Shown: in pieces, positions 4,293-32,561 of the stretch
Layout of the letters: each line of letters begins with the position of its first letter
Numbering within the stretch: position 1 is the first letter of the stretch
Assembly: GCA_020726405.1 (NCBI GenBank)
Contig: DYSB01000007.1
Coordinates: 1 to 39,377, forward strand
DNA from: Acetofilamentum sp.
GTDB taxonomy: Bacteria > CAIWAD01
Reading direction: 5' to 3'
Length of the DNA: 39,377 nt
Position numbers and translations under genes: made by a program
The notes under the pieces: generated by a model
What the model saw: only the letters and a program-made list of their open reading frames with translations
What the model was told of the DNA's origin: nothing
The model's database searches: none

Positions 4293-5533
4293 GGGGAATC
4301 CGCATCCTGGTCGTGGACGATTCCGCGGTGGTGCGCCGTCTGTTGACGCGGATCATCGAGGAGGAGCCGGGTCTGGAAGTGGCCGGCCAGGCGTCCAACG
4401 GCAGACTGGCCCTGGACATGCTGGATCAGGTCGAGCCGGATCTGGTGACCCTGGACGTGGAAATGCCCGTGATGGACGGCTTGGCCACGCTGGCCGAGCT
4501 GCGCCGGCGCCTGCCCCGCCTGCCCGTGATCATGTTCTCCACGCTCACCAGCCGGGGCGCGGCCACCACCATTGAGGCCCTCAGCGCCGGCGCCAGCGAC
4601 TATCTGACCAAGCCCGAGGGCGCGGCCAACCTGCAGGAGAGCCTGGAACGCCTGCGCGCCGATCTGGTGCCGCGCGTCCGGGCCCTGGCCCGGATCCGGC
4701 CCGCCCAGCCCGTCCACACCGTCAAGGAAACCGCGATGTCCACCTCCCCCCAGCCGCGCCTGACGACGGAACCCTTCCCGCGCACGTCCTCGGCCCTGAC
4801 GCGGGAGGCGCGACCCGGGCTCGGGCGGAGCGCCCCCCGGACTCCGGCGGCGGTCCGGCCGATCCCGCGCATGCCGCAGCCCAGCGTGATTCCGGCGGCG
4901 GGACCGACCCGCCACCTGGCGCGTCCGGCGGAACTGCTGGTGGTGGGTGTCTCCACCGGCGGCCCCAACGCCCTGGCCCGCGTGATGCCCCTGTTTCCCG
5001 CCACCCTTTCCGTTCCCGTGCTCATCGTGCAGCACATGCCCCCGCTGTTCACCCGCATGCTGGCGGATCGCCTGGACCAGCTCAGCCCCCTGACGGTGCG
5101 TGAAGCCCGCAACGGTTCCGCGCTCCTGCCGGGCGAGGCCTGGCTGGCCCAGGGGGACTGGCACATGGAAGTGGCGCGGGAGGGCGGCCGCCTGGTGTTG
5201 CGCGAGCATCAGGGTCCGCAGGTGAATTCCTGCCGGCCGGCCGTGGACGTGCTGTTCGATTCCGCCGTGCGCTGCTGCGGCGGGGCCGTGCTGGCCATGG
5301 TGCTGACGGGGATGGGTCAGGACGGGATGAAGGGCGCGCGCGCCATCCGCGAGGCCGGCGGGCTGGTGCTGGCCCAGGACGAGGAGAGTTCCGTGGTCTG
5401 GGGAATGCCCGGGGCCGTGGCCATGGCCGGCCTGGCCGACGCCGTGCTGCCCCTGGACGGGCTGGTGCCGCACGCCCTGCAGCTGCTGACCAGCATGCGC
5501 CCCTTCGGCGGAAGGAGCAGCGCATGCCGCTGA
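4289..5533 (+). CDS. cheB: Protein-glutamate methylesterase/deamidase CheB
   Basis: CheB demethylates or deamidates receptor glutamates and opposes CheR in adaptation. The 414-residue protein has an N-terminal receiver domain (phospho-acceptor Asp56 in TLDVEMPVMDG). A proline- and arginine-rich linker of about 70 residues follows, at roughly 145-215. The C-terminal esterase domain has the catalytic triad Ser222 (STGGP), His249 (QHMPP) and Asp345 (GMGQDG). It overlaps the preceding CheY gene by four bases and cheR by ten. The linker is longer than in enteric CheB. No unusual residues were seen in the active site. Confidence 0.96.
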   Translation: MRGIRILVVDDSAVVRRLLTRIIEEEPGLEVAGQASNGRLALDMLDQVEPDLVTLDVEMPVMDGLATLAELRRRLPRLPVIMFSTLTSRGAATTIEALSAGASDYLTKPEGAANLQESLERLRADLVPRVRALARIRPAQPVHTVKETAMSTSPQPRLTTEPFPRTSSALTREARPGLGRSAPRTPAAVRPIPRMPQPSVIPAAGPTRHLARPAELLVVGVSTGGPNALARVMPLFPATLSVPVLIVQHMPPLFTRMLADRLDQLSPLTVREARNGSALLPGEAWLAQGDWHMEVAREGGRLVLREHQGPQVNSCRPAVDVLFDSAVRCCGGAVLAMVLTGMGQDGMKGARAIREAGGLVLAQDEESSVVWGMPGAVAMAGLADAVLPLDGLVPHALQLLTSMRPFGGRSSACR

Positions 5534-9963: not shown

Positions 9964-9992
9964 TTGGCAGATTTCGCCCTCCTCTCTACCTT
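9964..9992 (+). promoter_or_regulatory. Probable promoter of the fadL-like gene
   Basis: TTGGCA (9964-9969) is separated by exactly 17 bases from TACCTT (9987-9992). This fits a housekeeping sigma -35/-10 pair and also the TAnnTTTG-like -7 box known in the FCB group. It leaves a leader of about 70 bases before the ATG at 10071, which has GGGAGG a few bases upstream. Confidence 0.5.
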
Positions 9993-22494: not shown

Positions 22495-23811
22495 ATGAAA
22501 CGCACGGTGATCCTCGACACCAATGTGCTGCTTCACAATCCCCTTTCGTTCCATGCCTTTCCAGGCGCCCATCTGGTGATTCCCATCACCGTGATCTCAG
22601 AGATCGACAAGTTCAAGAAGGGCGTCACGGAGGTCAGCCGCAACGCGCGCGAGGCCAGCCGCCAGATCGACGAGCTGCGTCGCGAGGGCAACCTGACCCA
22701 GGGCGTGAAGATGCCCGAGGGCGGCACCCTGGTGGTGGCGGGCGCGGGGCAGAAGCTGGTTTTTCCCGAGGGGCTCAGCCCGGCCGTGGCCGACGACTGC
22801 ATCCTGGCCATCGCCCTGCAGCACCCGGCCAGCCGGGGTTGGCCCAAACTCTTCGTCACCATGGACGTCAACATGCGCATCAAGGCCGGCGCTTACGGCC
22901 TGGAGGCGACGGGCTACGAGGATCGGCGGGTCCAGACGGACGACCTCTTCCAGGGCTACCACCTGATCCAGGTGCCGGCGGGCTGGGTGGACGAGTTCTT
23001 CGCCACAGGCCACCTGGACATGGAGGAGAACTCGGGTCTGCAGCCCAACGAGGGCGTGGTGCTGCAGGACGCTGAGCGCCCGGAACGCACGGCGCTGGGG
23101 GTCTTCCAGTCCCAGCCCAGCCGCCTGCAGTTGCTGCGCATCGACGAGGCCGGCCTGGGCTTGCGGCCGCGCAACCTGGGCCAGCATTTCGCCCTGCACT
23201 TTCTGCTGGACGAGAAGATCCAACTGGTGACCCTGGCGGGCCGGGCGGGCACGGGCAAGACCCTGCTGGCCCTGGCCGCAGGCCTGCGTCAGGTGCTGGA
23301 CGAGGAGTCCGGCTACCGGCGCATGGTGGTCAGCCGGCCCGTCTTTCCCATGGGCAAGGAGCTGGGCTTCCTGCCGGGCTCGCTGGAGGAGAAACTCAGC
23401 CCCTGGATGACGCCCATCCACGACAACCTGGAGCAGCTGCTGGACTCCCTGGCCGCGGGCAAGAAGGGCCAGCGGACCAGCGAGGCCAAGTTGCGCCAGT
23501 CCGGCGTGCTGGAGGTGGAGCCGCTCTCCTACATCCGCGGCCGCAGTCTGCCCAAGCAGTACTTCATCGTGGACGAGGCCCAGAACCTCACGCCCCACGA
23601 GGTGAAGACCATCATCACCCGCGCCGGGCACGGCACCAAGGTCGTGCTCACCGGGGATCCCGAGCAGATCGACAATCCCTACGTGGACGCCATGTCCAAC
23701 GGCCTGTCCTATGTCATCGACCGCTTCCGCGACCAGAGCATCAGCGCGCACGCCACTTTGAGCAAGGGCGAGCGCAGCCGACTGGCGGGCCTGGCGGCTG
23801 AATTGCTCTGA
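22495..23811 (+). CDS. PIN-PhoH fusion protein (PhoH2/YlaK type)
   Basis: A 438-residue protein with an N-terminal PIN nuclease domain ([11 protein letters not shown] with Asp8, then [19 protein letters not shown] and VTMDVN supplying the acidic site). A C-terminal PhoH ATPase domain follows, with Walker A GRAGTGKT at 249-256 and a [14 protein letters not shown] Walker B. In mycobacteria such PhoH2 proteins unwind and cleave RNA. A combined helicase-RNase role is therefore likely here. It lies eight bases after the hypothetical gene and overlaps the parvulin start by one base. It shares the PhoH module with the 19091 gene but is clearly a different subfamily. Confidence 0.93.
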
Positions 23812-25376
23812 TGCGCGAAAGGTCCAGTCCCGTGAACCGATTCCTCTTCCCGCTGCTGCTCTGGCTGTGGTGTGCCGACAGCCTGCCGGCCGCCCCGATC
23901 TATGTTACACGCTCGCAGGCCCGGGACTACCTGGCCACCCAGGGCGTGCCCGCGGACCAGCAAGTCCAGGACGGCGTGTTGCAAGACTGCCTGGTGGAGA
24001 TCCAGGAGCACACGCTGCTGGCCCTGGCCTGGGAGCGCGACGGCCGGCAATTGAACGCCGAGCAGCTGGGTCAGCTGGCGCAGGCCCGGGCTGAGATCGC
24101 CGTGCAGCTCTGCCGGGAGCGCCGCCTGCGCGTGGCCTCGCTGACGCCTAATCAGCTGCAGGACTACGAGTACCTCTCCCGCGCGCTCTACCGCACCAGC
24201 CACATTTTGGTGGACGAGAAAGCCCGGGCCGACGAGTTGGCGGTCCGCCTGCAGCAGGGCGGGTCCTTCCCGGAACTGGCCCGGCAGTTCTCCAGGGACC
24301 AGGGCTCGGCCAGCCAGGGCGGCGCCCTGGGTCTGGTGAAACTGGGCCAGACCGTGATGGAGTTCGAGGACGCCCTGTTGCGCCTGAAGCCCGGGCAGGT
24401 CAGCCCGCCGGTGGAGACGCCATTCGGCTGGCACTTGATCCGTCTGGACAGTCTGCTGGAGCGGGAGATCGTCTTCACGTCGCAGGAACTCACCGAACAG
24501 CGCGACATCCTGGAGCGGCACGCGCGGCGCCGGGCGGAGCTGGAAGCCCAGCGCCACCTGTGGCGGCAGCATCGCATCGAGCTGTTCCGCGACAAGGCCC
24601 TGGACCACGGCGTGCCCGCCACCGAAATCGTGGCCCGCACGGCGGACACCACCCTTACCCGCGGCCAGTTGGACCAGATGCTGCGCCAGGCCTTCGGCGC
24701 CAAGGAAGGCCTGGCCACAGACGGCCTGGGCTGGGACTTCCTGCGCTTCTGGGTGGAGCAGGACGCCTGGCTGCGCGAGGCGCGGCACGACGGGACCTGG
24801 GCCAGCCAGGAGGTGAACGACCTGGTGGACCTGCGCGAGCGCCTGCTCAAGAGCACGCTCTGCGTGATCGAGGACGTCATGCCGCTCATGAATCCCGGCG
24901 ACGAGGACCTCTGGAACTACTTGAGAACGCATGAACTGGAGTTTCTGGCCGAGCGCGCTTTCGGGGTCTGGACTTTCGAGTTCGCCAGCCGGGCCGAGGC
25001 GGAGGCCGCCCGGGCACTCTCGCGCAAGGAGAAGCTCGATCCGGTCCGCCTGGCGAAGCGGTTGGGGCTGGATCTCCATCCCCAGGAGTTGTCCGCCGAG
25101 ACCGTGCGCGGCCTGCCCGCCGCCCTGCGCAGCGAACTCATCGAGCTGAACACCGACGAGTGGAGCGACATCCTGGACAACGGGCAACCAGACGCGGCCC
25201 GGCGCTGGCTCTTCTACAATCTGGTGGGCCGGCGCATGCCGGACCTGGACGAGAGCGCTCCCTTGCGGCGCGCGTTGGTGGAGAAGGTGCGGACGGCGAT
25301 GATCGACGCCGAACTGGGTCGGCTGGTGGACGAGATGAAGCACCGCACGGGTCTGACGGAAGTCCGCTGGAAGTAG
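23811..25376 (+). CDS. Secreted parvulin-type peptidyl-prolyl isomerase
   Basis: A 521-residue envelope foldase of the PpiC/SurA/PrsA type. A signal peptide (hydrophobic core around residues 12-27, ending LPAA) is followed by a helical chaperone-like region. One rotamase domain lies at about 127-225 (RTSHILVDEKARADELAVRL, then FSRDQGSASQGGALGLVKLG and TPFGWHLIRLDS). A long C-terminal helical region of about 290 residues carries no second rotamase copy. It most likely assists folding of outer-membrane or exported proteins. The start at 23811 overlaps PIN-PhoH by one base; a GTG at 23832 would give a shorter signal peptide. The gene ends the run that begins at aspS. Confidence 0.88.
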   Translation: MRERSSPVNRFLFPLLLWLWCADSLPAAPIYVTRSQARDYLATQGVPADQQVQDGVLQDCLVEIQEHTLLALAWERDGRQLNAEQLGQLAQARAEIAVQLCRERRLRVASLTPNQLQDYEYLSRALYRTSHILVDEKARADELAVRLQQGGSFPELARQFSRDQGSASQGGALGLVKLGQTVMEFEDALLRLKPGQVSPPVETPFGWHLIRLDSLLEREIVFTSQELTEQRDILERHARRRAELEAQRHLWRQHRIELFRDKALDHGVPATEIVARTADTTLTRGQLDQMLRQAFGAKEGLATDGLGWDFLRFWVEQDAWLREARHDGTWASQEVNDLVDLRERLLKSTLCVIEDVMPLMNPGDEDLWNYLRTHELEFLAERAFGVWTFEFASRAEAEAARALSRKEKLDPVRLAKRLGLDLHPQELSAETVRGLPAALRSELIELNTDEWSDILDNGQPDAARRWLFYNLVGRRMPDLDESAPLRRALVEKVRTAMIDAELGRLVDEMKHRTGLTEVRWK

Positions 25377-25507
25377 CCGCCGGTTGGATCTCCGGCGATC
25401 CGGACGAGTTTTCTCGCCCCAAGGGGTTCCTTTTCCCCCGGCCCGCCTTGATCCGGCTTGGCGCGTGTGCAAGATTTCAAGCCGTCATGTTAACTAAATA
25501 ACGACCT

Positions 25508-25536: not shown

Positions 25537-26952
25537 ATGAAGATTCTCGTGCTGAACTGCGGGTCCTCTTCCCTGAAGTTCCAGCTCTTCGACATGCAGG
25601 AGGAGAAGGTCCTGCTCAAGGGTCTGGTGGAGAAAATCGGCTCCTCGCGGGCCATGCTGACCTTCAGCGGCCGGCAACCGGCACCCATCCGGGACGTGCT
25701 GGAGATTGCCAATCATGAGAAGGCCGTGCGCATCGTGATGGACATCCTGACGCACCCGGACCACGGCGTGATCCGCAGCATCTCCGAAGTGGATGCCGTG
25801 GGACACCGCACAGTCCACGGCGGCGAGGAGTTCAGCGACGCCGCCTTGATCACGCCCGAAGTGATCCAGGCCGTGGAGCGTTGCGTGCCCTTCGCACCCC
25901 TGCACAACCCCGCCAACATCATGGGCATCCTGATGGCGCGCAAACTGATGCCCGACCTGCCCCAGGTGGCCGTCTTCGACACGGCCTTCCACAGCCACAT
26001 GCCGCGGATCAGCTACCTCTACGGCCTGCCCTTCGAGATGTACGAGAAGCACGGCATCCGCCGCTACGGGTTCCACGGCACCAGCCACGGCTTCGTGGCC
26101 CAGAAGGCCGCCGAGGTCTTGGGCAAACCGCTGGCCAAACTCAAGCTGATCACCTGCCATCTGGGCAACGGTTCGTCCATTGCGGCCATTGACGGTGGCG
26201 TCTCCGTGGACACGAGCATGGGCTTCACGCCGCTGGAAGGCCTGGTGATGGGCACGCGTTGCGGCGACCTGGATCCCGCGGTGGTGGGCTTCATCCAAGA
26301 GCGTGAGCGGCTCTCGCCCCAGGACGTGGACTCGCTGATGAACAAGCGCAGCGGCCTGCTGGGCATTTCCGGCGTCTCCAACGACATGCGCGAACTGGAA
26401 GAAGAGGCCGGGCGAGGCAATGAGCGCGCCAAGCTGGCCCTGGAGATCTTCTGCCTGCGGGTGCGCAAGTACATCGGAGCCTACGCCGCGGAGCTGGGCG
26501 GGCTGGACGGCGTGGTCTTCACGGGCGGCATCGGCGAGAACGCCGTGGCCATCCGGGGGCGCATCCTGGAACACCTGGAGCATCTGGGCATCAAACTGGA
26601 CCCTGCGGCCAACCAGACGCGCCAAGCGCTGATCAGCAGCGGACGCGTCAAGGTTCTGGTGATCCCCACCAACGAGGAACTGGCCATCGCCCGGGAGACC
26701 CGGGTGGTCGTCCAGGGACTGAGCGCCCGGCCCGAGGCCATGAATTCGGTGGACCTGGAGCGCGAGATCGCCGCGCTGGGCGTGGAGGAGCGGCGGGAAC
26801 TGGTGCTGCTTTGGGCCGAGTCACGCTCCGGCGACCTGGCCACACTGACGGCCCGCTTCAACAACCGCCTCAAGGTCGCCGTCAACCAGCAGGCCGTGCA
26901 TCGGCTGCTGGCCGGCATGGGATTGCTGGAAGCAGAGGAGTGTGCCCGATGA
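25537..26952 (+). CDS. ackA: Acetate kinase with a C-terminal extension
   Basis: Acetate kinase interconverts acetyl phosphate plus ADP with acetate plus ATP. The first 395 residues are a complete enzyme: N-terminal LVLNCGSSSLKFQLF, HRTVHGGEEF, FDTAFHSHMP, GFHGTSHGFV, HLGNGSSIAAI, FTGGIGENA and the terminal VIPTNEELAIARET. About 76 further residues (396-471) follow in frame, predicted helical and rich in Arg, Glu and Leu. The usual family length is near 400, so this tail is an addition. A Met in the tail could suggest a separate gene, but there is no stop before it. No phosphotransacetylase gene is adjacent. Its stop overlaps the next gene by four bases. Confidence 0.94.
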   Translation: MKILVLNCGSSSLKFQLFDMQEEKVLLKGLVEKIGSSRAMLTFSGRQPAPIRDVLEIANHEKAVRIVMDILTHPDHGVIRSISEVDAVGHRTVHGGEEFSDAALITPEVIQAVERCVPFAPLHNPANIMGILMARKLMPDLPQVAVFDTAFHSHMPRISYLYGLPFEMYEKHGIRRYGFHGTSHGFVAQKAAEVLGKPLAKLKLITCHLGNGSSIAAIDGGVSVDTSMGFTPLEGLVMGTRCGDLDPAVVGFIQERERLSPQDVDSLMNKRSGLLGISGVSNDMRELEEEAGRGNERAKLALEIFCLRVRKYIGAYAAELGGLDGVVFTGGIGENAVAIRGRILEHLEHLGIKLDPAANQTRQALISSGRVKVLVIPTNEELAIARETRVVVQGLSARPEAMNSVDLEREIAALGVEERRELVLLWAESRSGDLATLTARFNNRLKVAVNQQAVHRLLAGMGLLEAEECAR

Positions 26953-27464
26953 ACCGCCCGCAGAACCCCGGCACCCCCGGCCTGCCCGAGACCGGCTGGA
27001 TCCTGGCCCGCGTCTGGCTGGGCGCCCTGGAGGAGACGGCCCGCGACTTCCATGGCAACTGGCCCAAGATGTTCCTGGACCGGGCCTACGAACACGCCAC
27101 GGCCAACTGGATCACGCTGATGGAGCAGGAGTACGACTTCGTTTTTCAGCGGCACGGCTCGATGATGGAGGCCCTGCGCGGCTACGTGGACATCGGCCTG
27201 AAGGCGGGCGTGTTCCACGACGCGTCGGATTTCCGCTTGAAGGAGATCAGCCCCAACAAGGTGGAAGTCACCATCTACCGGGACATCTACTCCCAGACTT
27301 ATCGCGAGCTGCGCATTCCCGGCCAGTCCGTGCGCGAGATGACCAACGCGCGGTTGGGCGCCTTCCGCGCCGCGGTGAAACTGCTGGCCGGCATCGAGTG
27401 CGATTACGAGATCACCGCCATCCACTCCGACGGCGTGGTGGAAGGCTTCATCGAGAGGCTGTGA
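26949..27464 (+). CDS. Hypothetical protein coupled to ackA
   Basis: A 171-residue soluble protein that I do not recognise. The N-terminal half is helical, with many aromatic residues (WILARVWLGALEETARDF, then DRAYEHATANWITLMEQEYDF). The C-terminal half is mixed, with strands NKVEVTIYRD and CDYEITAIHSDGVVEGFIERL and a helix between them. The helix-then-strand ending with an isolated Cys recalls small ligand-binding folds such as V4R/HNOB-like domains, but no diagnostic motif is present. It overlaps ackA by four bases (ATGA) and the HEAT-repeat gene by one. This tight coupling suggests that the three products work together. Confidence 0.85.
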   Translation: MNRPQNPGTPGLPETGWILARVWLGALEETARDFHGNWPKMFLDRAYEHATANWITLMEQEYDFVFQRHGSMMEALRGYVDIGLKAGVFHDASDFRLKEISPNKVEVTIYRDIYSQTYRELRIPGQSVREMTNARLGAFRAAVKLLAGIECDYEITAIHSDGVVEGFIERL

Positions 27465-29302
27465 TGAGTCCCATTTCCACAGATCGTGTGCCGGCCGCGC
27501 TGATGCGCTCCCTGCAGTCCGAGGACTGGCGGGAGCGGCGGCGCGCCGTGCTGGGACTTTCCGACGCGGATTCCGGGTCGGCCGCCCCTCTGCTTGAAGC
27601 CACCCTGGGCGATCCCTCCGACGACGTGCGACACGCCGCGGTGGTGGTGATCGGCCGCCTGCAGCTGCGGGGTTTCCACGACGAGGTGTTGAAACCGCGC
27701 ATCCTGGGCTCCCCGGACGCCAACCTGCGCTGGGCGGCGGTGTCCACCCTGGGCCGGCTGGCCGACACGCGCGACATCATTCCTCTGACCCGCATGCTGC
27801 AGGACGAAGACTGGCTGGTGCGCAACGAGGCGCGCAAGGTGCTGGCCGAGGCCGTGGATCGGCTGGGCGAGGACGCCGGCGACGGTGGCGCGGCGGACAC
27901 GCTGATCCACCTGCTCTTCCTGGAGAACGAGACCCTCCGGCCGCTGGTCATCCGCAACCTTTGCCGCCACGGCAGCTGGGCCCTGCCCGCCCTGCGCGAG
28001 GCCTTGAACGAGCCCTCGCCGGCCATGCTGGCGGGCGTGGTGCGCGTGCTGGGCCTGCTGGGGGACCGGCACAGCCTGGTTCGCCTGATCGAGTTGTCCC
28101 GGAGCGAGGACCGCCGCGTGCGCCGCGCCGTGGCGGAGTCCCTGGGCCTGCTGGGCGGACGCGACGCCGCGCGGACCCTGGTGCGCATGCTGGCCGTGCA
28201 GCAGAGCGAGGTCTGCGAAGCCGCCGAACAGTCCCTGTTGCAACTGGGCGCCGAGTCACTGCCGCCCATCCTCGAACTGCTGCAGCACGAGGACTGCACG
28301 CGCCTGCGCGTGCGCTGCATCCACGTGCTGGGACATCTGCGCCTGCCCGAAGCCCTGCCGGCCTTGCGGGCGGGCCTGCGTTCCAGCTATTACCGGGTGC
28401 GCCAGGCCACCATTCAGGCCCTGGTGGCCTATGGTTCGGCCATCACCGATCAGCTGCTGCCGGGACTCAAGGTCGGCGCGCCGGATGTCCACCCCCTACT
28501 GGTCCAGCTGCAGCGCGAGCCCAGCCAGGAAGGCCAGCTCCGCCTGCTGCGCGTGATTGGCGAGACGGGCAACCATGCCGCCGTTCCCTTTATCAAGGAT
28601 CTGCGGGGCGGGGCGACGGGTGAGGACGGCCTGCTGCTGCGGCGCACGGCCAATCAGGCCCTGTTCCAGCTGGGCTGCGCCTCCTGGGAGCGCTACTGCT
28701 TGTTGGCCGTCCTCGGTCAGGTGGCGGGGGTCGAACATGCGGAAGAACTGATTCCGTGTCTGGACCATCCATCGTATTATGTGCGCAACCGCGCCGTGCG
28801 ATCGCTGGCGCGCTTTTCCACGCCCGAAGTCGGCAAGGCCCTGGCCCGCACCGCGGGCAGCGATCCGCGCTATTTCGTGCGCCGGACGGCCTTGCAGGTG
28901 CTGGGCGGCTTGAACGTGGACAAGGGCCTGCTGTACCGGACCGCGCACGCCGCCATGCAAGACAACGCCCCGGGCGTCCGGGTGGAAGCGGCCCACGTGC
29001 TGGGCCGGCTGGTGAACGACAAGGCCGTGCCCGCCCTGATCGAGGGCCTGCTGGACGATGTTTGGAGCGTGCGCGAAGCCTGCGAGACGGCCCTGCGCAA
29101 CTTCCCGACCAAAGCTGTCAAGCCGCTGGTGCGCCTGCTGGACGAAGAGCGCGAGTTCATTCGGCTGCGGGCGGCCCGCCTGCTGGGGGAACTGGGAGAC
29201 CCGGGGGCTGTGCCGGCCCTGCAGCGTCAGTTGAAGAAGGAAACGCCGGGCACTCGTGTCCACGAGGCCCTGCTGAGGAGCGTGCATCGATTGCTGGCCT
29301 AG
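27464..29302 (+). CDS. HEAT-repeat protein
   Basis: A 612-residue protein made almost wholly of HEAT-like repeats, about 15 by eye. Each has the pattern 'L..L....W.VR..A...LG.LGD..A...L...L' (for example EDWLVRNEARKVLAEAV, SYYVRNRAVRSLARF and EFIRLRAARLLGELGDPGAVPAL). Such solenoids are scaffolds for protein or nucleic-acid partners, and some family relatives are phycobilin-lyase-like. No catalytic motif, signal peptide or membrane helix is present, so it should be cytoplasmic. Its ATG overlaps the previous stop by one base. The start was chosen for that coupling. It is not followed by an obvious terminator. Confidence 0.9.
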   Translation: MSPISTDRVPAALMRSLQSEDWRERRRAVLGLSDADSGSAAPLLEATLGDPSDDVRHAAVVVIGRLQLRGFHDEVLKPRILGSPDANLRWAAVSTLGRLADTRDIIPLTRMLQDEDWLVRNEARKVLAEAVDRLGEDAGDGGAADTLIHLLFLENETLRPLVIRNLCRHGSWALPALREALNEPSPAMLAGVVRVLGLLGDRHSLVRLIELSRSEDRRVRRAVAESLGLLGGRDAARTLVRMLAVQQSEVCEAAEQSLLQLGAESLPPILELLQHEDCTRLRVRCIHVLGHLRLPEALPALRAGLRSSYYRVRQATIQALVAYGSAITDQLLPGLKVGAPDVHPLLVQLQREPSQEGQLRLLRVIGETGNHAAVPFIKDLRGGATGEDGLLLRRTANQALFQLGCASWERYCLLAVLGQVAGVEHAEELIPCLDHPSYYVRNRAVRSLARFSTPEVGKALARTAGSDPRYFVRRTALQVLGGLNVDKGLLYRTAHAAMQDNAPGVRVEAAHVLGRLVNDKAVPALIEGLLDDVWSVREACETALRNFPTKAVKPLVRLLDEEREFIRLRAARLLGELGDPGAVPALQRQLKKETPGTRVHEALLRSVHRLLA

Positions 29303-29498: not shown

Positions 29499-32400
29499 AT
29501 GCACGCATTTCGTACTGCCGGACGGCTGAACGGGAGGTCCGCGACTTCACCGGCTGACGGCGCTTACCGAATTCTCCACCCTGCCCCGGCGCGACCACGT
29601 GCCGCGTGGCAGGGTTTCTGGTTGCTGGCGGGCCTGCTCTGGCTGGTCACGGTGGCCGGGGCCCAGACCGTCATGCCCGACACTCTGCGCCCGACCACGG
29701 GCCATGCCTTCCGGCTGTCGGATTTCGACGGGCCCTTCTGGTTCAACCAGCGCTCCGTCGTGCTGCCCGGCGACACTCTGTTCGCCGGCCCGGGTGACTC
29801 GCTGCTCTTCAAGGCCGACACCCTGGGCCTGGGCTCCCTGATGATCCAGGGCACGCTGATCGTCGAGGGCAATCAGGACAGCCTGGTGGTCTTCACGGGC
29901 CAATCCTACAGCCAGTTCAGCTGGCCGGGCATTCTGTTCCGCCAGCTGGCCGGGGACTCCACCACCTCCCTCATCCACTACGCCCACCTGAATGGCGCCA
30001 ACACCACAATCAACACCAACAAGGTGGCGGCCTGGGGCCAGCCCTATTCCCTCGTCGTCCGGCGCAGCTTGTTTACGGACGGCAGTTTTGGCGCCGTGCT
30101 CTTCTCGCCCTCCTCTTCGCGTTTCGAGAACTGCGTGTTTGACGACCAGCGCAACGTGTCGGTCTATGCCTCCAACTGCCGGGCGGAAGTGGTCAACTGC
30201 GTGCTGATGCCCCACGAGGATTTCCCCAGCGCCAAGGCCATCAACTTCTACAATCCGCCGGCGGACCCGGCTTCGGTCGTCCATTACAACCTGTTCTATC
30301 CGGGCGTGGGCGAATGGTGGAGCGAGTTCCTGCTCTCCAACAACACGGGGGACTCGCAGTACACGTATCACCAGCTGGACTCCACCAACCTGGTGGCGGA
30401 CCCGCTCTTCCTGGCGGATCGGCCCTACCACCCGGATCCGGAAACTTCGCCCCTGGTGGATAGCGGCGACCCCACCCTCCTCGACCCGGACGAGACCGTC
30501 TCCGACATCGGCATTTGGTGGGTGCGCGGCATCGAGAGCCCCCTGCGCATTCTGAGCGCGCCCTCCCCTTCCACCTGGGTGAAGGGCTACAACTTCCTGG
30601 CCGTGTTTGACATCCAATCCTACCCGGCGCCCGACTGGAGCCTGGAAGGCGCCCCGGCGGGCATGCAAATCAGCACGCTGGGCCGGAGCTGGGCGGCGCT
30701 GAGCTGGCCGGTCAGCCAGCAGCAGCTGGGCGCCCACCACTTCTGGATCCACGGCCAGAACCTGGCCAACGAGATGGTCTACCACGACAGCCTGGAAGTC
30801 AACTTGCTGTTCCTGGAGAACCACGCGCCGCAGCTCAGCCTGGTCTCCCCTTGCGACGGCGGGGGCTGCCTGGGTCAGCGTGACGTGATCGTGGAAAACC
30901 TATCCACCGGCACGTCCACCGTGGTGCAGTTGCAAGTGGAGGACGAGGACGCCGCCTTGCTGGGGAGCCAGCAGATCTACCGGCTGAATGTCTGGCTCAA
31001 CGGCGTGGCGGAGCCCACGCTCTTCGTCAGTCAGCTCCAGCGCGAGTTCGTCCTGGACACCACGGCTCTGGTGCTGGATCTGCGCTTCTCCGACGGCGTG
31101 GCCTACGACAGCCTGCATTATGAAATCCACCCACGCTTCACGCTGCTCTCCGGCGACGTGTCGGGCGTGATCGGCACGGCCACCGGCCCTGTCTTCCTGA
31201 CCGGACCCCTGCGCGTGCCCGCCGGGCAGAGCCTGCGCGTGGAGGCCGGCAGCCTGCTGGTGGCCGGCGACTCGGACAGCGAGGTTTGGCTGCTGGACGT
31301 GGAGGGTGAGCTGCTGCTGGAAGGCAGCGCGGAGGCCCCGCTCATCTTCCGCTGCCTGGCGACCCAGCGTGCGGGCCTGGATCTGCGGCCGCCCTTCCTG
31401 CGTGTCCAGCAAGGCGGGCAGCTCAGTGGCCTGTCCCACGTGGAGTTCGAGGGCTTTTCCACCGCCGTGCAACTGGAGCACCTCGATCAGACGGAGCCCG
31501 TGCTGATCGACAGCTGCGCGTTCACGCGTGTGCGGCTGGGCATCCTGGCGGTCAACACGCCCGTGGACATCCGCCACAGCGTCTTCCATTCGCCCGCCGA
31601 CAGCCTGCAACTGGGCAGCTCGAGCATCTACCTGGCGGGCTCCGTGGGCAGCGTGATCCAGAACAACCTGTTCATCAATCCAATTGTCGGCGTGACCGCG
31701 GTGGACGCCGACGCCCGGATCTCCAACAACAGTTTCGTCTGGGTGAAGACGCGCAATCAGAACTGGACGCACTCCTGGCCTACCTATAGCCAGCTGGGAT
31801 TCGGGCGCGTCCACGCCTTCAACTCCACGCTGGAGATCCGCAATAACCTGTTCCAGTGGCGCGCCACGCACTTCGGCGACGTTCTCACCACCAATCAGTT
31901 AGAGGCCTACGCCGCCTCTCCCACGCACGCCATCTGGCTGGATGAGGCCAGCCGGGTGCGGGCCGAGTGGAACTGGTACGACTGTCGCAACGCCTGGCTG
32001 AACAGCGCGGAGGGCTATCAGAATCTTTCCTTCCAGACGGCCATCAACGACAGCACGCTCCTGCTCAGCCATATCCGGGCCGGGGCGGACAGCGCAGGCG
32101 TGGATGAGGCCAGCGGCTACCGGCTCTTCGCCGACAGCCCGCTGATCGACGCCGGCGATCCTTCCGGCCTGTGGAACGACGCCTTCGACGCCAGCCGCTG
32201 TGACATCGGCTGGACGGGCGGTCCGCTGGCGCTGGTGAGCGAGTACACGGCGGTCAGCGATCTGCACGGCGAGGAGCCCGGCATCACGCTGCTGCCCGGG
32301 AGCTTCCGCCTGAGGCCGGCCTATCCCAATCCCTTCAACCCCTTCTCGCGGCTGGAAGTGGAACTGGACCGGCCGGGCCTGCTGGACCTGCGGATCTACG

Positions 32401-32561
32401 ACCTGCTGGGTCGCCAGGTAGCCGTGCTGGTCCACGACCGGCTGGAACCGGGCGTCTACGGCCTGCAGGTGGACGGCTCCGGCTGGGCCAGCGGCTTCTA
32501 CGTAGCCCGGGCCCGCTTCCAGGGCGAACAGCAGAGTACGCGCCTGCTGTTGGTGAAGTAG
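29499..32561 (+). CDS. Large secreted protein with beta-helix features and C-terminal sorting domain
   Basis: A 1020-residue exported protein. The N-terminus has about 38 residues with many Arg before a hydrophobic core at 39-56 (ending VAGAQ), a longer signal peptide than usual. Two regions look like right-handed beta-helix: a first at about 100-320 (FENCVFDDQRNVSVYASNCR) and a second at about 600-830 (LIDSCAFTRVRLGI, VIQNNLFINP, ARISNNSFVW). An immunoglobulin-like stretch separates them. From residue 941 the AYPNPFNPFS motif begins a beta domain ending in LLLVK, as in type IX or FlgD-like C-terminal domains. Function may be adhesion or polysaccharide binding; no catalytic residues are clear. 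It is preceded by a 196-base spacer and followed by a strong terminator. Confidence 0.85.
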   Translation: MHAFRTAGRLNGRSATSPADGAYRILHPAPARPRAAWQGFWLLAGLLWLVTVAGAQTVMPDTLRPTTGHAFRLSDFDGPFWFNQRSVVLPGDTLFAGPGDSLLFKADTLGLGSLMIQGTLIVEGNQDSLVVFTGQSYSQFSWPGILFRQLAGDSTTSLIHYAHLNGANTTINTNKVAAWGQPYSLVVRRSLFTDGSFGAVLFSPSSSRFENCVFDDQRNVSVYASNCRAEVVNCVLMPHEDFPSAKAINFYNPPADPASVVHYNLFYPGVGEWWSEFLLSNNTGDSQYTYHQLDSTNLVADPLFLADRPYHPDPETSPLVDSGDPTLLDPDETVSDIGIWWVRGIESPLRILSAPSPSTWVKGYNFLAVFDIQSYPAPDWSLEGAPAGMQISTLGRSWAALSWPVSQQQLGAHHFWIHGQNLANEMVYHDSLEVNLLFLENHAPQLSLVSPCDGGGCLGQRDVIVENLSTGTSTVVQLQVEDEDAALLGSQQIYRLNVWLNGVAEPTLFVSQLQREFVLDTTALVLDLRFSDGVAYDSLHYEIHPRFTLLSGDVSGVIGTATGPVFLTGPLRVPAGQSLRVEAGSLLVAGDSDSEVWLLDVEGELLLEGSAEAPLIFRCLATQRAGLDLRPPFLRVQQGGQLSGLSHVEFEGFSTAVQLEHLDQTEPVLIDSCAFTRVRLGILAVNTPVDIRHSVFHSPADSLQLGSSSIYLAGSVGSVIQNNLFINPIVGVTAVDADARISNNSFVWVKTRNQNWTHSWPTYSQLGFGRVHAFNSTLEIRNNLFQWRATHFGDVLTTNQLEAYAASPTHAIWLDEASRVRAEWNWYDCRNAWLNSAEGYQNLSFQTAINDSTLLLSHIRAGADSAGVDEASGYRLFADSPLIDAGDPSGLWNDAFDASRCDIGWTGGPLALVSEYTAVSDLHGEEPGITLLPGSFRLRPAYPNPFNPFSRLEVELDRPGLLDLRIYDLLGRQVAVLVHDRLEPGVYGLQVDGSGWASGFYVARARFQGEQQSTRLLLVK

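Follow-up and report, generated by a model that had tools for sequence, protein, structure and literature searches.

A conserved three-gene module of a tailed acetate kinase, a small protein and a HEAT-repeat protein, a candidate acetate kinase control complex in Acetofilamentum sp.

Acetate kinase (AckA) is a textbook enzyme, and we know of no dedicated partner proteins for it and of no described system of the kind reported here. In a 39,377-nucleotide stretch of DNA from Acetofilamentum sp. (GenBank assembly GCA_020726405.1, contig DYSB01000007.1; the whole stretch is referred to as the window), ackA is followed by a gene for a small protein of 171 residues and a gene for a HEAT-repeat protein. 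The kinase of this trio shares the whole kinase domain and the active-site residues with described acetate kinases (PF00871, TIGR00016; PDB 1g99/1tuu), and differs from them by a C-terminal tail resembling a helix-turn-helix (HTH) and by its two dedicated partner genes. A preliminary description of this DNA had singled out the trio as an undescribed system. We find a genuinely conserved module, of which the AckA tail, absent from that description, is a fourth part. Our searches of open-access literature turned up no description of such an acetate kinase module, as judged from the search results alone.

The described proteins closest to the small protein are ATC_hydrolase (PF14196), V4R (PF02830), HNOB and MetOD1, which the available part of one study groups together, describing shared conserved cysteines (PMC5847659). 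The small protein resembles them in the modelled order of helices and strands and shows weak sequence matches. The cysteine set of members outside the window's genus appears similar, compared as a set and not position by position with V4R or ATC hydrolase. In contrast, the small protein stays below the curated cut-offs, has an N-terminal EE-x-ARDFHG segment of its own, and is without most of the cysteines in the window's genus. The methanogen redox regulator MsvR, as presented in the available part of its description, unites an HTH and a cysteine-bearing V4R domain, and its DNA binding is redox-dependent (PMC3729527). The module likewise brings an HTH-like part and a V4R-like candidate into one system; however, MsvR is one protein, whereas the module has its candidate domains on two, with the HTH-like part fused to the kinase and nearly neutral in charge. 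The HEAT protein shares its repeat sequence type with PBS-lyase-type HEAT proteins (CpcE/NblB, PF03130), but is longer and falls below the NCBIfam cut-offs for those lyases. Finally, each of the three genus genomes has a predicted operator-like site 5' of ackA and a Rex domain gene, as in the Rex regulon, although this link is limited to the window's genus.

Conservation of the gene trio and of the acetate kinase tail

Our sample comprised 466 distinct genomes and is enriched for the phylum of genome G326, because this phylum was searched after it had yielded a match. The small protein occurs in 23 full-length copies spread over four phylum-level groups. Scanning contigs with an alignment from the genus recovered the genus itself and two copies in metagenome-assembled genomes labelled Gemmatimonadetes by NCBI, which carry the same genes between other flanks; one of the two contigs starts inside the ackA tail. 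G326 and G154, both with a complete trio, came from a profile search of 386 genomes. Full-length copies number 17 in the G326 phylum (82 genomes), one in the three genomes of the G154 phylum and two in the two genomes of the G098 phylum. A search via relatives of G154 gave no new lineage and left the sample essentially as before. Genome G003 (98% complete), from the window's own family, matched none of the three proteins. A match in G261 (E 2e-4) was rejected, there being no trio on its short contig, and weak matches in G449 and G440 were set aside as paralogues with no ackA on their contig stretches.

In all 23 genomes the small gene is followed by the HEAT gene, which contig ends cut in some. 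AckA, or its tail in G099, lies 5' of the small gene in all 22 genomes where the contig reaches, G424 being left out of this count as its contig starts inside the small gene. The gene order is constant, and the flanks differ among the four groups. The genes range from overlapping to 394 bp apart at the ackA/small-gene junction and to 277 bp apart at the small-gene/HEAT junction, leaving out G439, whose ackA frame is broken; in G098, the small open reading frame (ORF), with its start at 9980, overlaps by 8 bases. The trio is thus a well-supported, conserved module of three genes in fixed order, and its conservation across phyla, on which the preliminary description had let its proposal depend, is borne out.

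The AckA tail extends about 75 residues past the kinase domain, with a W and a GL invariant in 15 of 15 aligned sequences, and is present on the trio AckAs of all four groups. Among the matches listed for the G326 phylum (82 genomes), a tailed AckA occurs in 16 genomes (in one of them in two pieces), and 15 of these 16 also encode the small protein. Viewed from the other side, 15 of the 17 small-protein genomes of this phylum have the tail, G396 has none, and in one the sequence is ended by the contig end. The co-occurrence of tail and small protein gives a Fisher p of 2e-13 over the 82 genomes, with no correction for kinship. Neither the small gene nor the HEAT gene was near a tail-less ackA at any of 10 loci inspected; these and the tailed locus of G049 are a subset of those found. 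The AckA tail goes with the small and HEAT genes.

When 37 AckA cores were placed in a tree, those of the trios clustered across the four groups, and eight tail-less AckAs nested inside them, with weak support for the deep branches. The tree includes 16 of the tail-less AckAs found, a subset, and labels G396 'tail' although the AckA of this genome is tail-less. The nesting suggests that tail, small protein and HEAT protein were lost jointly. Two pairs of loci can be compared directly. In G431 the trio is followed by miaA, and in G049 a tailed ackA is followed by miaA, with the small and HEAT genes absent. Similarly, an FGGY kinase gene adjoins the trio in G435 and a tail-less ackA with neither partner in G434. 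Meanwhile, pairwise distances of AckA core, small protein and HEAT protein correlate (Pearson 0.89-0.93, in 17 of the 23 genomes), which shared ancestry alone could produce.

Tight gene overlaps are common in compact genomes, and the trio might be an operon of convenience, with two unrelated genes placed on the promoter of a housekeeping ackA. However, the trio stays together between different flanks in four groups, the tail tracks both partners, and at least 14 of the 17 small-protein genomes of the G326 phylum carry an additional AckA-like kinase, which suits a special role for the AckA of the module. This explanation, already disfavoured, appears very improbable to us. The constant order between different flanks, the co-occurrence of tail and small protein, the partner-free tail-less loci, the nested tail-less AckAs, the miaA locus of G049 and the correlated distances favour a dedicated complex. 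Our leading reading, held tentatively, is that the module is a dedicated, possibly redox-responsive control complex of acetate kinase.

Features of the individual proteins

The kinase itself belongs clearly to the acetate kinase family, scoring 523 bits against PF00871 (cut-off 22) and 520 bits against TIGR00016 (cut-off 293). Its best PDB match by sequence is the acetate kinase 1g99 (E 7e-143, residues 1-393), and the Pfam match stops at residue 386 of the protein's 471, leaving some 75-80 residues beyond the domain. The active-site residues N7, R91, H123, D148, H180, R241 and an E near 381, in what we take to be the Methanosarcina acetate kinase numbering, do not vary among the 15 trio AckAs aligned, and the alignment to 1g99 has no gaps at these positions. 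The window's genome has one full AckA and, where a contig ends, a second and partial match to the family. On contig C37 of G000 (4472-5526), this partial match follows a PTA_PTB match, and the pair is perhaps a phosphate acyltransferase and an acyl kinase. No pta was seen adjoining the module, and pta is located elsewhere in seven of seven genomes searched. The viral contigs searched for AckA gave no matches.

Acetyl-phosphate can phosphorylate response regulators, and the preliminary description had suggested a phosphotransfer hub. In such a hub, the partners would receive phosphate from acetyl-phosphate or from AckA. This suggestion finds no support: the three window proteins contain no receiver, HPt or other phosphorelay domain (Pfam, E up to 1), and no regulator gene recurs beside the module. 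We consider such a hub extremely improbable.

The model of the tail is helical and HTH-like, with a predicted local distance difference test score (pLDDT) of 75. Fold comparison with VIA returned mostly HTH proteins and DNA-binding domains over 45-60 aligned residues, with middling Z scores of 6.1 and below, mostly 5-6; Foldseek gave nothing significant for the tail model. Weak matches to HTH_Tnp_Tc3_2 (E 0.015) and HTH_24 (E 0.05) occur in tails of other lineages, and Pfam gave no match for the window's tail. These likenesses, and the redox-dependent DNA binding of MsvR as excerpted, would suit a moonlighting regulator, that is, a split MsvR in which AckA bears the DNA-binding HTH and its partner is a V4R-like redox sensor. 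On the other hand, the HTH-like part has a net charge between -3 and +2 in the 19 tails aligned, often with an acidic third helix. This alignment leaves out G439 and G396 (no intact tail) and G099 and G424 (no ackA on the contig). Judging from charge near zero and from the middling fold scores, the tail would more likely serve in protein docking than in DNA binding, and we find a moonlighting regulator decidedly improbable.

For the small protein of the window, Pfam gave no match, and NCBIfam and PDB gave none that is meaningful; searching PDB by sequence, with the single sequence or with a profile, gave nothing significant. A match to NCBIfam pdxJ (E 0.045) and matches to MIT, DrmE_N and other single Pfam families in the 22-member set were judged to be chance. 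PADLOC matched the HEAT repeats alone. The model, based on three sequences (pLDDT 69), runs in the order helices, two strands, helices, two strands, and Foldseek found no significant match to it. With VIA, it resembles Bet3 (Z 5.2, root-mean-square deviation 4.0, 124 aligned) and H-NOX (Z 4.8, deviation 3.8, 95 aligned), both tied with unrelated rows. PF14196 is matched weakly by 11 of 22 module members, at best with E 0.0015, and not by the window's own protein. A profile of the module proteins aligns to a set of five paralogues with an hhalign probability of 98.7; two of the five carry weak PF14196 matches, and one adjoins a gene with a V4R match slightly below the cut-off (29.6 bits vs 31). 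These results point weakly to a relative of the ATC-hydrolase/V4R/H-NOX superfamily. The 'novel protein' of the preliminary description is therefore novel at the family level only, given its weak kinship to a known superfamily.

In G449 (L078 5400-6956), the distant paralogue adjoins the V4R-like gene and a short ORF, which is roadblock-like by eye and has no Pfam match.

The alignment of small proteins holds 22 of the 23 copies, the partial G424 being left out. Five columns are cysteine in 20 of 20 proteins from outside the genus. All 22 aligned copies, genus included, retain the EE-x-ARDFHG segment, with E28, E29, D33 and H35 invariant. Such a segment could be catalytic, and with the weak PF14196 matches it would fit coupled catalysis, in which the small protein would be an ATC-hydrolase-related enzyme, held beside AckA by tail and HEAT protein so that acetyl-phosphate, acetate or ATP passes between two catalytic steps. 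However, these matches stay under the curated cut-off and do not include the window's own protein, and the genus has lost four of the five conserved cysteines despite strong purifying selection. Moreover, no pathway gene adjoins the module recurrently. Coupled catalysis is unlikely in our view, yet deserves to be kept in sight.

The HEAT protein scores well above the cut-off with HEAT repeat models (HEAT_2 227 bits, cut-off 27.7). We count 12 helix-B motifs in it, mostly 31-33 residues apart with a few gaps. This fits the roughly 15 repeats of the preliminary description, whose exact number is not proven.

Proposed control of acetate kinase and a possible link to redox state

We propose that, in the control complex we favour, the tail would dock AckA onto the HEAT scaffold, the small protein or both. 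With a V4R/ATC-hydrolase-like pocket and its cysteines, the small protein may sense a ligand, a metal or the redox state, and the complex would then gate the reaction acetyl-phosphate + ADP <-> acetate + ATP. A redox link is favoured by the conserved cysteine columns, by redox and fermentation neighbours in G394, G396 and G399, and by the Rex-like site and Rex gene of the genus. The preliminary description had also proposed a metabolic sensor, with which the weak V4R/ATC-hydrolase kinship, the conserved cysteines, the redox or fermentation neighbours of some genomes and the genus's Rex-like operator are compatible.

Several observations weigh against the control complex. The superfamily placement is weak, with the best E below the Pfam cut-off and VIA Z scores of about 5. 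The window's own small protein is without four of the five universally conserved cysteines, the genus keeping C151 only. G396 has the small and HEAT genes beside an AckA without the tail, and G049 has the tail alone. Most loci have no adjoining redox gene, and the Rex-like site is limited to the window's genus and not found in other lineages.

Where such neighbours exist, they differ from genome to genome. By Pfam, the trio of G394 has hydrogenase-type genes (NiFeSe_Hases, Oxidored_q6) on one side and, on the other, CCG- and Fer4/FAD-domain genes that look like an Mvh/Hdr set; by eye, the surroundings in G395 are similarly hydrogenase-type and Hdr-like. LarA-like genes lie 5' of the trio in G396 and G399, and by eye in G401 too. 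In G154, pgk- and tpiA-like genes lie 5' and a PEPCK-like gene 3', again by eye. No pathway or regulator gene recurs among the loci inspected. G394 has a second ackA (L118) on the same contig, which is tail-less; by eye, a further hydrogenase-like gene lies near it, as do genes resembling response regulators.

Hydrogenase- and LarA-type neighbours, together with the resemblance of the HEAT part to PBS-lyase/CpcE/NblB-type proteins by sequence, would suit a maturation or assembly factor, the small and HEAT proteins stabilising or maturing AckA or neighbouring metalloenzymes (hydrogenase, LarA). However, such neighbours are few, many genomes hold a tail-less AckA with neither partner, and AckA to our knowledge requires no cofactor. 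We therefore regard a maturation factor as improbable.

Rex senses NADH/NAD+. The Rex-like site of the window has 3 mismatches to the consensus, with 0.04 matches expected in the window, and a similar site lies about 50 bp 5' of ackA in all three genus genomes. The consensus is that given in the available part of PMC5367854. As a feature of the whole module the site was rejected, since it occurs in one genus alone. A Rex domain gene (PF06971) is above the cut-off in G000, G001 and G002, and G003 has one as well; no match was found in G098, G154 or G326. The genus without four of the five cysteines is thus the one with the Rex-like site, and the three cysteine-bearing lineages have no Rex match. 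The apparent swap, with cysteines lost and a Rex site gained, sets one genus against three lineages and is only suggestive. Within the proposed control complex, Rex transcriptional control may carry part of the redox response in the genus that lost most of its cysteines.

A more specific proposal, which we find possible but doubtful, is an undescribed class of metabolic control device, in which a HEAT solenoid would link an AckA with a docking domain to a V4R-like sensor of redox state or of a ligand. Redox state would then set the acetyl-phosphate/acetate step post-translationally, and the window's genus would have traded its cysteine sensor for Rex. A conserved module with a docking tail, a sensor-like protein and a scaffold would offer a direct handle on the control of acetyl-phosphate, both an energy carrier and a signal, in uncultured fermenting bacteria.

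Locus layout and flanking genes

The features of the locus are collected in Table 1. The coordinates of the three genes and their ATGA and TGATG overlaps are exactly those of the preliminary description, and both overlaps are present in all three genus genomes. At the first junction, the ackA stop TGA (26950-26952) overlaps the small-ORF ATG at 26949; at the second, the last base of the small-ORF stop TGA (27462-27464) is the first base of the HEAT start ATG (27464-27466). The GGAGAGGAG-type stretch, a candidate ribosome-binding site of the small ORF, is found in G001 and G002 as well.

Table 1. Features of the acetate kinase module and its upstream region (window coordinates)
Feature	Position	Strand	Evidence
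Rex-like operator 5' of ackA (ATGTTAACTAAATAACGA)	25487..25504	+	Predicted; sole window match to TTGTTAANNNNTTAACAA at <=3 mismatches
ackA, acetate kinase with C-terminal tail, 471 aa	25537..26952	+	PF00871 523 bits, TIGR00016 520 bits; best PDB match 1g99
AckA tail, residues 389-471	26701..26949	+	On trio AckAs of all four groups; HTH-like part ~26770-26925 (model)
GAGGAG, likely ribosome-binding site of small ORF	26935..26940	+	8 bases 5' of ATG
Small protein, 171 aa, ATC-hydrolase/V4R-like superfamily candidate	26949..27464	+	23 full-length copies/466 genomes; weak PF14196 in 11/22 members, not window's own; model, fold comparison
ATGA start/stop overlap, ackA/small ORF	26949..26952	+	Sequence; kept across genus
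TGATG stop/start overlap, small ORF/HEAT gene	27462..27466	+	Sequence; kept across genus
HEAT-repeat protein, 612 aa	27464..29302	+	HEAT_2 227 bits, HEAT 94 bits, HEAT_PBS 66 bits; 3' of small gene in 23/23 genomes

Within the genus, the ratio of nonsynonymous to synonymous substitution rates (dN/dS) is 0.16-0.21 for ackA and the small ORF and 0.25-0.34 for the HEAT gene; all three are clearly under selection at the protein level. Synteny of about 20 kb surrounds the trio among the genus genomes. The genus copies are for this reason weak evidence of linkage, and we rejected within-genus conservation as proof that the genes are linked; linkage is properly tested by the lineages outside the genus.

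Upstream of the trio (window 22495-25376) lie a PhoH2-like gene (PIN + PhoH) and a gene for a PPIC-type peptidyl-prolyl isomerase, so tightly coupled that the end of one and the start of the other coincide in one base, 23811. Directly 3' of the module, at 29499-32561, a gene encodes a beta-helix protein with a C-terminal sorting tail of the type IX secretion system (T9SS) type. Its TIGR04183 match is barely above the cut-off, and a homologue occupies the same position in both genus relatives.

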